Below, in pieces: positions 5,443 to 10,203 of a stretch of DNA of 64,000 bases; position 1 is the stretch's first letter; the number at the start of each line of letters is the position of its first letter. The notes under the pieces are model-generated. The model saw nothing but the letters and a program-made list of their open reading frames with translations, made no database searches and had not been told where the DNA came from. The stretch covers positions 1,550,001 through 1,614,000 of the forward strand of contig NZ_CP100400.1 in the NCBI RefSeq assembly GCF_024218795.1, in the 5' to 3' direction. The stretch is from Halorussus aquaticus (GTDB lineage: Archaea; Halobacteriota; Halobacteria; Halobacteriales; Haladaptataceae). A program made the translations under genes and the position numbers.

Positions 5443-6675
5443 TCAGCGAATCACGTCGAGACCGTTGTTCTGCTCGACCTTGTCCTGACCGCCGTCGCTC
5501 TTGGTCCCCCACTCCGCGGACTCGTTGGTCTCGCGGGAGGTACCGCCAGTTCCGCCGAGACCTCCGGCGTCTTCGACGTTCTGACTGGCGTCGAACGACT
5601 GGGCGTCCACGTCGCGCATCTCCTGACGGGACTTGTCGGCCTGCTTCTGGGTACTCGGACCGAGGACCTGCGCGCTCTGGACGCCGGTCATGATGGCCAT
5701 GACCCGGACCTTACCCTTGTAGTTGTCCTGGATGCGCGCGCCCCAGATGACGTTCGCGCTGGCTTCGAGTCGCTCGGTGATGTTCGAGGCGATTGACTCG
5801 GCCTCCTTGAGCGTGAGGTCCGGACCGCCCGTGATGTGGACGAGTCCACCGGACGCGCCGCGGTAGTCCACGTCCAGCAGCGGGTGGTTCATCGCGTCGC
5901 GGACGACTTCCTCGGTCTTGTTCTTGTCCTGGGTCTCGCCGACCAGCATCACCGCGACGCCGCCCTGATTCATGATAGAGGTCATGTCGGCGTAGTCGAG
6001 ATTGATGAGCGAGGGCTGGGTGATGGTCTCCGAGATGCCCTTGACGGTCTCGGCGATGATCTGGTCCATCACCGAGAACGCCTTGCCGATGGGCAGGTTC
6101 GGGACGTAGTCGAGCAGTCGGTTGTTGTCCAGCACGATGATGGAGTCGGCCTCGTTGCGGAGCTTTTCGAGGCCCTCCTCGGCTTTCACCGTGCGTGCGC
6201 GCTCGACGTTGAACGGCGTCGAGACCATCCCGACGACGATAGCGCCCTGCTCTTTGGCGATCTTCGAGACGACGGGGGCCGCACCGGTGCCGGTGCCGCC
6301 GCCCATCCCCGCGGTGACGAACACGAGGTCCGCGTCGCCGAGTACCTCCTTGATGGTGCCCTGCGCCATCTCGGTGGCGCGCTCGCCCATCGAGGGGTCG
6401 CCGCCAGCGCCGAGTCCGTTGGTCAGGGACTTGCCGACCAGAATCTTCGTGTCGGCCTCGATCATCTTGAGGTGCTGCTTGTCGGTGTTGATAGCGACCG
6501 TGTCAGCGCCTTCGACGCCGATGTTGTAGAGTCGGTTGACGGTGTTGTTGCCCGCACCGCCACAGCCGACGATGACGATTCGGGGGTCGCCGAACTCGTC
6601 GCCGTCGGTCGAGGCGTCCATCTCGCGGCTCTCTTCCTCGGCGTTCTCGAGGGCGTCTTGAACGATATCCTGCAT
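5443..6675 (-). CDS. ftsZ2: Cell division protein FtsZ2
   Basis: A tubulin-family GTPase of 410 residues that forms part of the midcell ring. The GTP site includes [13 protein letters not shown] (38-50) and the tubulin signature GGGTGTG (125-131). The T7-type catalytic loop region NLDYADM follows. The acidic, low-complexity C-terminal tail ends NNGLDVIR, which from memory is the FtsZ2-type ending rather than FtsZ1. The gene follows cdrS on the same strand with 3 bases between stop and start, so they form one operon. In haloarchaea FtsZ1 and FtsZ2 act together, with FtsZ2 needed for constriction. Paralog assignment rests on the tail and the cdrS linkage. Confidence 0.93.
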
Positions 6676-6678
6676 GGT

Positions 6679-6861
6679 CTACACCTTCGCCCACGAGCGC
6701 TTGTTCGCGGTCTGCTCGGTCTGTTCTTCTTCGTGTTCGTTCAACATGTCTCGAACGGCGGCCCGAATCGCTTCGCTCCGGTTCGGGAACTCGCCCGTCT
6801 CGACCATCTGTTCGACCTCTTCTATCTGCTGTTTCGGAATGCGCAGTGTCACACGCTCCAT
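6679..6861 (-). CDS. cdrS: Ribbon-helix-helix regulator CdrS
   Basis: A 60-residue protein that is almost entirely one ribbon-helix-helix domain. [11 protein letters not shown] forms the strand and [17 protein letters not shown] the second helix with the N-R-S-E turn typical of MetJ/Arc folds. A short polar tail follows. Haloarchaeal CdrS is a known regulator of cell division genes, always just upstream of ftsZ2, and that arrangement is seen here. The ATG at 6861 is preceded by an AT-rich leader. The upstream region contains palindromes of the size RHH dimers bind (see the regulatory entry), so autoregulation is plausible. Confidence 0.9.
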
Positions 6862-7047
6862 ATTTTGTAATTTCCCCTGTTGTTAGTAAGACGGCACGCG
6901 ACTTCCAGCGCGTCCTGTCTTACACTTTGTTAGCCCTCAACACGGGACAATTCCCGTCTTCGGGGCGACGTGTAAGACGACCGTCTTACGTGCCACTATC
7001 CACATAGTCAAAACTTAAATAGTTAACGCCCGTCGTAAAACACTGTC
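6862..7047 (-). promoter_or_regulatory. cdrS-ftsZ2 control region with GTAAGAC/GTCTTAC palindromes
   Basis: A 186-base spacer between cdrL and cdrS. On the minus strand a TATA-like CTATTTAAG lies near 7012-7022. About 25 bases downstream, at the expected transcription start, is a near-perfect palindrome formed by GTAAGAC (6972-6978) and GTCTTAC (6983-6989) with a 4-base spacer. Further down the leader the same heptamers recur at 6886-6892 and 6917-6923. A related dyad, GTCGTAA at 7032-7038 and TTACGAC at 7048-7054, spans the cdrL stop codon. The repeated half-sites, their symmetry and their position over the start site suggest a repressor operator. The natural candidates are the RHH proteins CdrL and CdrS encoded on either side; their actual sites are not shown by the sequence. 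Confidence 0.7.
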
Positions 7048-7710
7048 TTACGACCGGTCGAGAACGTCGGCCGCGGGCGTTCGGCGGCCGCAGCTCGGAC
7101 AGAACCCCCAGTCGGAGCGCACTTCGTCACCGCACTCACAGAAGACCCGTCGTGCGGCCTTCTCTCCGCAGTTCGGACAGTAGACGTGGTCGTCGGACAG
7201 CGACTCGCCGCACTGTCCGCAGGCGTTCTCTGTCTCGTCGGACGGCTCGCGGCCGTCCGCGTCGGCGGCGCGTTCCGGCGGGCGTCCGTCGGACAACTCG
7301 TCAGACGCGTTCGCGTGCCGGTCGGCCGACGCGTCGGTTCGGGCCGCATCGGTGTCGAGCGTCACGTTGACGTTCACGTCTCGTGCGCGCTCGCCGCGGT
7401 CGCGTTCGCGCTCGCTGGCCTCCCACGCGGCGAGTCGCTCGGCGACGAGTTCGTCCACGCGCTGCGCGAGGACGTCGTCGATCCTGTCGGCACTTCGGCG
7501 CTCGCCGTGGCCACCCTCCGAGGTGGTCGCTCGGCGTACGTCGCGCACGCGGTCCGCGTCCGCGGTGGGGCTGCGACGGGCGCGGTTCGCGTCGTCGGAC
7601 GCGTCGAGGTACTCGCGGAGCGCCTCCCGCATGATCTCGCTCTTCGAGGCGTCGCGGGCCTCGATGCGCTCGACCAGTTCCTCGTCCGCGCGGAACGTTA
7701 TCTTGCTCAT
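7048..7710 (-). CDS. cdrL: CdrL: ribbon-helix-helix regulator with double zinc ribbon
   Basis: A 220-residue protein with an N-terminal RHH domain (MSKITFRADEELVERIEARD...SEIMREALREYL, residues 1-40), a long charged and probably disordered middle, and two C-terminal zinc ribbons. The first ribbon is CGQCGES...CPNCGE and the second is CECGDE...CPSCGRR. This matches CdrL, the long partner of CdrS, described in haloarchaea as controlling the cdrS-ftsZ2 operon. It lies immediately upstream of that operon on the same strand. The ATG at 7710 is about 35 bases downstream of an AT-rich stretch near 7740-7750 (minus-strand GAAATAGG), consistent with a very short leader. Confidence 0.85.
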   Translation of the reverse strand: MSKITFRADEELVERIEARDASKSEIMREALREYLDASDDANRARRSPTADADRVRDVRRATTSEGGHGERRSADRIDDVLAQRVDELVAERLAAWEASERERDRGERARDVNVNVTLDTDAARTDASADRHANASDELSDGRPPERAADADGREPSDETENACGQCGESLSDDHVYCPNCGEKAARRVFCECGDEVRSDWGFCPSCGRRTPAADVLDRS

Positions 7711-7942
7711 GTGCCAGTTCGACCCACAGGTTTACGACCAACCTATTTCAATCTTCCCCAAACATGTCCGACGAGCGGAAGACGATGGGAGACGGGCGGC
7801 CGTCGGGAGGTTTCCGGTCCGTCTGTCGTTCAGAACGCCGCGTAACGTGTGACCTCATCCGATGGTCACCGGGGGTGTCGGGGTCGAACACTGAACGGCG
7901 ACGTGACTCGGTGGCAGGCGACGCGCTCTCACCGAATAATAA

Positions 7943-7951
7943 CCCTTAAGT
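7943..7951 (+). promoter_or_regulatory. Putative TATA box of tRNA-Tyr
   Basis: CCTTAAGTC sits in an AT-rich island (AATAATAACCCTTAAG) about 35 bases before the mature 5' end of tRNA-Tyr. That distance fits an archaeal box A with a short 5' leader removed by RNase P. The spacer 7711-7981 holds no credible gene. Confidence 0.5.
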
Positions 7952-7981
7952 CTGGCAGGGCACCTACGTGAAACTGCGTGC

Positions 7982-8054
7982 CCGCCCTTAGCTCAGACTG
8001 GTAGAGCAGTCGACTGTAGATCGACTTGCCCCCCGTTCAAATCGGGGAGGGCGG
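7982..8054 (+). tRNA. tRNA-Tyr, anticodon GTA
   Basis: All arms can be drawn. The acceptor stem is CCGCCCT with AGGGCGG and begins with C1-G72, the archaeal tyrosine identity pair. The D arm is GCTC...GAGC. The anticodon stem GTCGA/TCGAC closes the loop CTGTAGA, giving anticodon GTA. The T arm is CCCCG-TTCAAAT-CGGGG. The gene has no intron and no encoded CCA. Its 3' end is repeated in degenerate form downstream, consistent with use as an integration site. Confidence 0.95.
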
Positions 8055-8060
8055 ATTTGT
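8042..8060. repeat. Copy 1 of island direct repeat (tRNA-Tyr 3' end)
   Basis: TCGGGGAGGGCGGATTTGT covers the end of the T arm, the acceptor 3' strand and 6 bases beyond. It matches copy 2 at 8153-8171 at 14 of 19 positions. Counting the preceding GTTCAAA, which is also shared with copy 2, the similarity starts at 8035. It is the probable intact attachment half. Confidence 0.55.
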
Positions 8061-8152
8061 TCTACAAATCCGATCGACGCGATTTGAGCCTGTGAGCCGC
8101 AGTCCCGGAACGGCCGAAGGCCGCACGCCCGGAACGTCTCACAACGTTCAAA

Positions 8153-8171
8153 TCGGAAAGAGCGGACTTCT
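8153..8171. repeat. Copy 2 of island direct repeat
   Basis: TCGGAAAGAGCGGACTTCT, preceded by GTTCAAA exactly as in the tRNA T arm (8146-8152). It differs from the copy at 11337-11355 at one of 19 positions. It lies about 100 bases past tRNA-Tyr, just before the truncated ATPase. Confidence 0.6.
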
Positions 8172-8199
8172 CCCGAATTTACAACGACGAGCGAAGCGA

Positions 8200-8628
8200 G
8201 TCCACGATTCAGAAACGCATTTTCCGTTCGTGGTCATCGACGAGGCCTCAACGCACTTCGACGCTCGGACCTACCGCCACGAGGTGGCGACCCAATGGAC
8301 GCCGCTCGCCAAGCGGTTCGCCAAGATTGGCGTGGACGTGTGCGGTCTCATCTGCCACTCCGGGAAGGACCTCCACCCCGAGGCGAAGCGGCTCTCGACA
8401 ATGCCGTACTTCAAGCGCGAGAAGAAGGTCGTGGACTTCTTCGAGCGGTGGCCTGCCGACGCCGATATGCCTGCTGACTCGTTGTTCGGTGGCTCCGTTG
8501 AGAATTTAGAGCCGACCGGGACCGAGTACGACCCTAACGACGCCGCGCCATGGTCGTGGGATTTGGAGTCCGATTTGTTCTCACTTGACCTCAACTGGTC
8601 ACAGCTACTCCATCGGATATCTTCCTAG
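8200..8628 (+). pseudogene. 3' fragment of a virus/plasmid-type P-loop ATPase
   Basis: About 142 codons resemble the C-terminal part of a DNA-translocase-like ATPase. FVVIDEAS is a Walker B motif. LICHSGKDLHPEAKRL and ENLEPTGTEYDPNDAAPWSWD resemble the conserved segments of the putative ATPases encoded by haloarchaeal pleolipoviruses and related plasmids. No Walker A motif or start codon precedes it; upstream the frame runs into the tRNA-derived repeat. It is therefore a truncated relic, joined to the repeat at about 8175-8200. Family assignment is from remembered motif patterns. The gene is GC-richer than the next one, suggesting separate origins. Confidence 0.6.
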
Positions 8629-8668
8629 ATGTAAAATAAGGATACAACTATCATTATGTTTCTCTAAT

Positions 8669-8680
8669 GCAGAAAGCTTA
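8669..8680 (+). promoter_or_regulatory. Putative TATA box of the HEPN gene
   Basis: CTTAATAATACG is centred about 32 bases before the ATG at 8707. A start site 25-27 bases downstream would leave almost no leader, the common haloarchaeal arrangement. The whole 8629-8706 spacer is AT-rich, so the box is not unique. Confidence 0.45.
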
Positions 8681-8706
8681 ATAATACGTGATACGATTAA
8701 GGTTGC

Positions 8707-10176
8707 ATGCAAGAAATTAACTTCGAACTAAGAAAGAAACTTAAACTGGCTGTTGAAGATTACACATCATATATTGAAGAGCAAGAAGATGGTAAAATAC
8801 CGACATCGGAATATTTTATTCCCGGAGAGAAGGGAATGGAGAAGCAAGAAATTCCTAATATGAGCAAACTACCAGAGTTTTATGAGGAGAAACGCCCCGA
8901 ATTCTTCCGTGATTTAGCAAAGTGGTTTATCACATCTGGAAACTCATATAATCAGAAAAGCATCTTTAAGAAGATCGAAAAAGAAGACCACATCTCATAT
9001 CAATCAATAAAGGCTGAAGAGGCTGAAATGGACCAAATCATCACACAATACGAATCTGACTTTAGTTCTTTTGCAGGTCAAGTATTAGACTATGCTGGAT
9101 CATATGACTTCGATAGTGATGATTACGATCGGGCCTTTGAGGATTTCTTTGGGGAGAGATATGATAAGAAAACTTGGGAAAAGCACATACTCCCAATAAG
9201 TAATTTAGAAGTTGAAGATTCCATTAGCTTAGAAGAAGACATTAGCTGGTTGAATAATGCAGATATAGAAAATATCTCCATAGAGATTGATGATATTACT
9301 GACTCCGAATTAGCCGCTATAAGATCTTCTCAAAACAATTTCGCCACGAAATCAACCTTACGAAGTTATGGCTACGATTGGAAGAGTATCATTAGAATCG
9401 AATTTAATGGCTCACTATTGACTAATAAATTGGTTGAATCGATAATAACCTCTTTGAGGCTATTTTCACCTACATCCTCAGAGATTCATTCTGGGAAAAT
9501 ATATATGATAGAAAAAACAGGTAAGACCTATCGAGAAGGAATTGAAGATTGCGTTGGTGTCTCTCCTATTGAAAACCCGACTTCAGGGGTAAACCCAAGA
9601 AATTGGCAAAGCCTCGATAACGAGAGTGAATTCCGGGAGTTTTGGTCGGAATACAGAAACTACCTAAATCTATCTCAAGCAGAAGAAAAAGCAGGTAAAC
9701 TTTCAGGGGCACTTCGTCGATTTAATGAATCTTATTTGAAGCACAATCTTGAAGACAAAATCGTTGATATAGTTATAGCGTTTGAATCTACTCTATTACG
9801 CGATGTACCGAAAAATTCCTCCTATTCTTTTCGACTAGGTTTGCGTGCTGGACTCCTACTTGAGGACTTTGTCGACTACGATCGCGAAGTGATACGCAAC
9901 TTGTTCAAGAACTTGTATTATACTCGTGGAGAGATTGTACATCAGGACCGTGAACTTACAGAAATACAACAAGATGACCAATTCCAGGAGATTGATGCGG
10001 TCTCGTCAGAAGAGAACATATCTGATTATAGACTCTTGCTTGCTAAATCGATAATCAAATATTTCGACCTTATTAACGAATACTCTCTAAGTATTACACA
10101 AATAAATCAAAAACTTGACCAAGCGGTTTGGGAAACTGCTTCGTTTGAATTGGGAAATAATGAATATGATGACTAA
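8707..10176 (+). CDS. AT-rich accessory protein with C-terminal Apea-like HEPN domain
   Basis: A 489-residue protein of foreign composition: codons end mostly in A/T, and it is rich in Lys, Ile and Asn, unlike every other gene in the window. Residues 1-330 are mostly polar and helical with no motif I recognise. The C-terminal part (about 335-465) fits the Apea-like HEPN pattern: IVDIVIAFESTLL, then SFRLGLRAGLLLE, then LYYTRGEIVH, where R407 and H412 make the R-x4-H signature of HEPN RNases. HEPN proteins of this kind act in abortive infection and anti-phage defence by cutting RNA. Position in a tRNA-linked island next to a phage-type ATPase relic supports a defence role, but target and trigger are unknown. 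Confidence 0.75.
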   Translation: MQEINFELRKKLKLAVEDYTSYIEEQEDGKIPTSEYFIPGEKGMEKQEIPNMSKLPEFYEEKRPEFFRDLAKWFITSGNSYNQKSIFKKIEKEDHISYQSIKAEEAEMDQIITQYESDFSSFAGQVLDYAGSYDFDSDDYDRAFEDFFGERYDKKTWEKHILPISNLEVEDSISLEEDISWLNNADIENISIEIDDITDSELAAIRSSQNNFATKSTLRSYGYDWKSIIRIEFNGSLLTNKLVESIITSLRLFSPTSSEIHSGKIYMIEKTGKTYREGIEDCVGVSPIENPTSGVNPRNWQSLDNESEFREFWSEYRNYLNLSQAEEKAGKLSGALRRFNESYLKHNLEDKIVDIVIAFESTLLRDVPKNSSYSFRLGLRAGLLLEDFVDYDREVIRNLFKNLYYTRGEIVHQDRELTEIQQDDQFQEIDAVSSEENISDYRLLLAKSIIKYFDLINEYSLSITQINQKLDQAVWETASFELGNNEYDD

Positions 10177-10203
10177 TTCTAATAAATGGTATGAAAGTGT
10201 CTT

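Follow-up and report, generated by a model that had tools for sequence, protein, structure and literature searches.

In haloarchaeal cell division, the transcriptional control of ftsZ2 has been well studied. Ribbon-helix-helix (RHH) proteins such as CopG, Arc and MetJ have operators beside the RHH gene, built of short subsites that are spaced by about one turn of the helix. In Halobacterium salinarum, ChIP-seq of CdrL gave a single reproducible peak, located at the level of the region upstream of cdrS-ftsZ2 (accessible text of PMC7439475; CdrL ChIP-seq data GSE148065). The published Halobacterium cdrL mutant carried second-site mutations. ChIP-seq of CdrS in Haloferax gave 18 sites, with ftsZ1 included and the cdrS promoter absent, as far as the accessible text of PMC8406309 goes. 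No binding-site sequence at the cdrS-ftsZ2 promoter is given in the accessible portions of PMC7439475, PMC8406309, PMC8303175, PMC12284271 and PMC7617429. A literature search, with most subscription papers and all preprints outside its range, found no description of the boxes or of the leader fold reported here.

The same genes were found in the window (the whole 64,000-nucleotide stretch of Halorussus aquaticus DNA that was analysed), where cdrL, cdrS and ftsZ2 follow each other in this order on the minus strand, and where CdrS and CdrL both carry an RHH_1 domain, so that RHH proteins are encoded at the locus itself (Table 1). Scanning the sequence between cdrL and cdrS revealed five exact GTAAGAC/GTCTTAC heptamers, named A to E from the upstream side. 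The first-pass annotation had counted four, together with a GTCGTAA/TTACGAC dyad which is present where it had been placed; the array before cdrS is real. The heptamer had also been said to occur otherwise only in this spacer and at the cdrL stop codon, which is wrong, since further copies lie at 9521 and 33921 in the window. When the 200 bases before cdrS were shuffled 20,000 times with dinucleotides preserved, no shuffle contained more than two heptamers, compared to five observed, and in another 20,000 shuffles of the same bases the palindrome formed by B and C (the core, GTAAGACGGTCGTCTTAC) arose once. Five boxes within 200 bases are far beyond chance. No enrichment of the heptamer is seen across the window as a whole (7 copies, 4.5 expected), and the core is single-copy in the 4.7-Mb genome. 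It begins about 32 bases downstream of a TATA-like CTATTTAAG, and is thereby placed immediately past the expected start site, in agreement with what had been proposed for the tightest pair; from this spacing, we infer that the core sits at the transcription start site. Elsewhere in the window, a tRNA gene was seen at 7982-8055. Past it (about 8050-10200) come an ORF fragment and an AT-rich region containing a 489-aa ORF, which together resemble a mobile element inserted at the tRNA.

Table 1. Positions of genes, DNA boxes and predicted RNA elements (window coordinates).
Feature	Sequence or pairing	Position	Strand	Basis or remark
cdrL		7048..7710	-	RHH_1 domain, CdrL_M middle region, double zinc ribbon
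cdrS		6679..6861	-	RHH_1 protein, 60 aa
ftsZ2		5443..6675	-	Tubulin and FtsZ_C domains
Box A	GTAAGAC-AGT-GTTTTAC	7035..7051	-	upstream of TATA-like element, across cdrL stop codon
Box A, exact heptamer	GTAAGAC	7045-7051	-	
Box A, weaker right half	GTTTTAC	7041-7035	-	
Dyad	GTCGTAA/TTACGAC	7032-7038/7048-7054		
TATA-like element of the cdrS-ftsZ2 promoter	CTATTTAAG	7014..7022	-	sequence; spacing to core kept in relatives
Core palindrome B/C	GTAAGACGGTCGTCTTAC	6972..6989	-	spacer GGTC
Box B	GTAAGAC	6983-6989	-	
Box C	GTCTTAC on minus strand (GTAAGAC on plus)	6972-6978		
Box D	GTAAGAC	6917-6923	-	
Box E	GTCTTAC on minus strand (GTAAGAC on plus)	6886-6892		
RNA helix P1, 5′ strand (box B + GG)	pairs with 6886-6894	6981..6989	-	
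RNA helix P1, 3′ strand (CC + box E)		6886..6894	-	E exact in 127/131; flank complementarity, covariation
RNA helix P2, outer 5′ strand (box C + AC)	pairs with 6917-6925	6970..6978	-	
RNA helix P2, outer 3′ strand (GT + box D)		6917..6925	-	D exact in 84/131; covariation
RNA hairpin P3, between D and E		6895..6916	-	folds; interior z-scores
cdrS leader, predicted three-way junction		6862..6992, approximate	-	start inferred; fold z-score

An alignment with other haloarchaea had been suggested as a check, and the boxes are indeed real and conserved class-wide. The core with a 4-bp spacer (B and C 11 bp apart, start to start) was found in 309 of 391 genomes of the class, in a single copy in every positive genome but one, which has two; a reversed control pattern was almost absent from these 391 genomes. 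A search for other spacers covered 80 of the 82 genomes without this form, and detected one copy with a 2-6 bp spacer (9-13 bp start to start) in 69 more genomes, which brings the core with any spacer to 378 of 389 fully tested genomes. The 11 genomes without it are 3 without a clear CdrS and 8 that have cdrS with a degenerate core. In all 49 loci fetched from the scan and examined, the palindrome is followed by a CdrS ORF. Among the best 80 of 300 CdrS matches in named genomes, taken together with the window, GTAAGAC-N3-5-GTCTTAC was present in 80 of 81 loci, the sole exception being Halorientalis marina, whose right half is degenerate. B and C are thus short inverted subsites placed over the promoter at a spacing of about one turn, as in RHH operators.

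The other boxes were followed in the 131 loci with an intact core. An exact box E is present in 127 of them and an exact box D in 84, while 92 have a box on the upstream side of the TATA region. When a slightly wider region was considered, an exact half-site upstream of the TATA-like element was found in 101 of 140 loci; a control stretch taken 200 bases further upstream had one in 13 of 140. Offsets of the upstream half-sites from the core cluster at 52-53, 61-65 and 73-76. In 114 of the 140 loci, the core is preceded by a TATA-like element that starts 32-33 bases before it. Box A and the core thus appear to keep near-whole-turn spacings, as DNA sites would, the intervening TATA box also constraining the distance. 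No helical phasing relative to the core was found for D and E.

One rival reading follows the operator proposal of the first-pass annotation and takes the boxes as a pure CdrL operator array on DNA; any RNA pairing would then be a by-product of half-sites in opposite orientation. The published CdrL ChIP peak at cdrS-ftsZ2 (accessible text of PMC7439475) and the presence of one palindrome per genome agree with it, as do box A, which cannot belong to this leader RNA, and the methanogen arrays described below, which are DNA-like with an 11-bp period. Against it stand the lack of phasing of D and E and the distribution of CdrL. A CdrL profile, used to score the best 8 candidates per genome, had a match in 376 of the 391 class genomes and none in 15; in 4 of these 15 all candidates were scored, and still no CdrL was detected. 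The palindrome is present in 12 of the 15, and the other 3 also lack a clear CdrS, so the boxes are not limited to genomes with a detected CdrL. In one genus, where neither of two species had a CdrL match, the boxes were 35/35 identical and the remainder 124/167 (74%). The exact A heptamer is absent in 6 of 8 CdrL-less loci read, and box A is also variable among CdrL-bearing relatives. Two CdrL-negative genomes of one genus have a second GTCTTAC copy about 23 bases upstream of box A. CdrL as sole keeper of the boxes was rejected, since they persist in genomes without detected CdrL. Where present, CdrL would be the likeliest reader of the core and box A; as the boxes are kept where it was not detected, the operator should be readable by CdrS or a different RHH protein as well.

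CdrS could also be the main reader, binding GTAAGAC at its own promoter, with CdrL as an accessory. CdrS starts with MERVTLRIP in all 140 haloarchaeal loci, meaning that its DNA-binding strand is identical in 140/140, and R3, T5 and R7 are kept outside haloarchaea too; CdrL starts with MSKITFRAD (K3, T5, R7) in 123 of 132 loci. R3/T5/R7 of CdrS and K3/T5/R7 of CdrL are presumably the DNA-contact residues. Besides this conservation, the persistence of the boxes without CdrL and the lowering of ftsZ2 by cdrS deletion in Halobacterium speak for CdrS autoregulation.

We examined which motif CdrS may bind elsewhere by reading 30 ftsZ1 loci; GTCNGAC-N4-GTCNGAC, or a close form, is present in most ftsZ1 promoters with a placed start, the start being unplaced in several loci, where the stretch shown is not the promoter. 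This inferred CdrS motif has 8 matches in the Halorussus genome, against 1 for a reversed control. These sites precede ftsZ1, a proteasome beta subunit, a CetZ paralogue and small unknown genes, named by eye from their translations, save ftsZ1 and the CetZ/FtsZ relative, which were identified by search. The proteasome beta subunit is a published type of CdrS target, and the sites make up a candidate CdrS regulon of this genome. The cdrS-ftsZ2 promoter is not among the 8 matches. The genome scan proposed for other division genes gave the core once, and a related RHH-type motif stands before ftsZ1. That the motif inferred for CdrS elsewhere is still GTCNGAC-N4-GTCNGAC argues against autoregulation through GTAAGAC, and so does the absence of the cdrS promoter from the 18 Haloferax CdrS ChIP sites in the accessible text of PMC8406309.

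Other classes of the phylum were then compared. CdrS is present there, and the CdrL profile had no match in 10 of 11 genomes, the eleventh giving a weak one in the zinc-ribbon region. GTAAGAC was found in none of 19 cdrS leaders from these classes, and the same leaders contain 39 GTCNGAC boxes, compared to 0.5 expected. Distances between box-like sites are 11, 22, 33, 44 and 55 (14, 20, 13, 6 and 16 pairs, respectively), with few others. In methanogens devoid of CdrL, arrays of GTCNGAC-like boxes before cdrS follow a strict 11-bp period, with up to six boxes consecutively. These phased arrays suggest that Halobacteria inherited an older CdrS array and rewired it: the ancestral arrangement was apparently a phased array for CdrS, whose boxes were changed to GTAAGAC in this class. 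Ancestral arrays before cdrS where CdrL is absent are a further point for CdrS autoregulation, which on the whole we hold to be unlikely. As to the earlier proposal of an RHH operator, the related motif before ftsZ1, the phased methanogen arrays and the CdrL ChIP peak (PMC7439475, accessible text) sustain the RHH part of it. A CdrL and/or CdrS operator remains a good candidate for the core and box A, with the difference of the CdrS motif and the retention of boxes without CdrL standing against either protein as it was put forward.

Boxes D and E had been taken as additional half-sites. They are best explained as RNA arms: B:E and C:D would close two helices of a three-way junction in the cdrS leader. 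Folding gave a z-score of −4.56 for the window and a mean of −3.73 over 70 representatives (chosen at below 80% identity from 140 leaders), and in most of the 70 folds B:E and C:D paired with a probability close to 1. Half-sites in opposite orientation will pair in any case, so tests were made on parts outside the heptamers. The P2 and P3 interiors alone had mean z-scores of −2.0 and −1.1, respectively, compared to about 0 in cdrL controls (n = 55). Pairing of the bases after B with the bases before E reached 178, against 162.4±2.7 in shuffles, and the E flank was complementary to the B flank in 106 of 114 cases (84.5±2.8 in the control). Since the E flank has no likeness to the C flank (identity 47, against 52), drift of a shared DNA-binding motif does not explain this covariation, and was disfavoured as its source. 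The outer flanks of C and D pair in 337 cells, against 273±10.

Covariation was also measured on a tree-based null, with 144 sequences, anchored columns and 4656 column pairs. The top three pairs of the 4656, C+3:D−3, C+2:D−2 and sp+2:E−2, are all predicted ones. Together, the eight predicted pairs score 282, compared to 12±32 under the null, where the maximum of 100 simulations was 101; singly, the top three have p values of 1e-4 to 5e-4, short of a correction over all pairs. The helices are thus conserved with covariation above the phylogenetic background as a set, the single pairs failing the all-pairs correction. When 44 of 47 selected leaders were aligned with MAFFT (three were omitted for an expected misplacement of D), the junction had a covariation of 0.158, against 0.078±0.008 when shuffled and at most 0.075 when slid. 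Other results are less favourable. In the C:D extension, G-U is no more frequent than A-C, so the RNA signature is not seen there, and RNAalifold on 66 leaders recovered P1 alone, D being misaligned in part of them. In the window, the predicted C:D stem soon runs into an internal loop. A sequence like CCGCNGTCNGGCGGTT is frequent on the 3′ side of the P2 interior in several families, and exceeds the needs of stem pairing. A search of 6600-8100 against Rfam, with E values up to 1, returned the tRNA only, and the leader matched no described family.

The heptamers are complementary in both pairings, and the leader could in principle be a switch between B:C plus D:E hairpins and the three-way junction. 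B:C plus D:E had a covariation of 0.022, against 0.021, in the 44-leader alignment, i.e. no signal, and most of the 70 folds gave this pairing a low probability. These hairpins were rejected as the RNA fold for lack of covariation, and a switch is highly improbable. The covariation found outside the heptamers on the tree-based null, and the structured interiors, likewise go against the pure CdrL array, to which we assign a low probability.

We conclude that the cdrS-ftsZ2 control region is probably an element coded twice, as a DNA operator and as arms of a leader RNA. At the DNA level, the two 7-bp boxes of the core, separated by about one turn and located at the start site, would form with the helically phased box A an operator for RHH dimers; a protein bound over the start site, helped by A, may limit or tune cdrS-ftsZ2 transcription. 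At the RNA level, the transcript would begin about at box B and fold into P1 (B:E), P2 (C:D) and P3, between D and E, the junction closing the 5′ end with the ribosome-binding site just outside P1. Such a fold could control stability or translation. Counting against double coding are the 2-6 bp spacer, a variation that one would not expect of rigidly paired dimers, the exactness of D in 84 of 131 loci only, and the CdrS ChIP sites, without its own promoter. In Halobacterium, mRNA and ribosome footprints of the cdrS-ftsZ2 operon diverge during growth (accessible text of PMC8303175), which fits an RNA-level step and does not show one.

More tentatively, the leader may be a new class-wide archaeal cell-division RNA whose helix ends are the operator, coupling RHH transcription control with RNA-level control of CdrS and FtsZ2, and derived from an ancestral 11-bp CdrS array rewritten at the base of Halobacteria. 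The boxes and the predicted leader fold, together with the inferred CdrS motif and the methanogen arrays, lead to point mutations that would separate the DNA from the RNA function in Haloferax volcanii: changes at spacer position 2 and E−2 would alter RNA pairing, leaving the heptamers untouched. If true, double coding would help explain the divergence between mRNA and ribosome occupancy of the operon during growth, and would illustrate the rewiring of a regulator's own operator upon the arrival of a second RHH protein at the locus.

Compared to the CopG, Arc and MetJ operators, the likeness lies in box spacing near one turn, the adjacent RHH gene and the 11-bp arrays of methanogens; the differences are the overlap with a conserved leader RNA and the 2-6 bp spacer. 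With structured mRNA leaders and riboswitches, the locus shares a covarying three-way junction before the ribosome-binding site, but it has no Rfam match and its helix ends are invariant in sequence. The CdrS motif of Haloferax volcanii (accessible text of PMC8406309; inferred here from ftsZ1 promoters) has the same 7+4+7 layout and the same inner GAC-N4-GTC as the core, whereas its outer triplets are GTC/GAC instead of GTA/TAC. The closest system is the CdrL region of Halobacterium salinarum. The accessible text of PMC7439475 contains no motif, palindrome, box map or leader RNA, and the boxes described here are present also without CdrL; locus and gene order are the same, and the single-copy palindrome here matches the single peak there.
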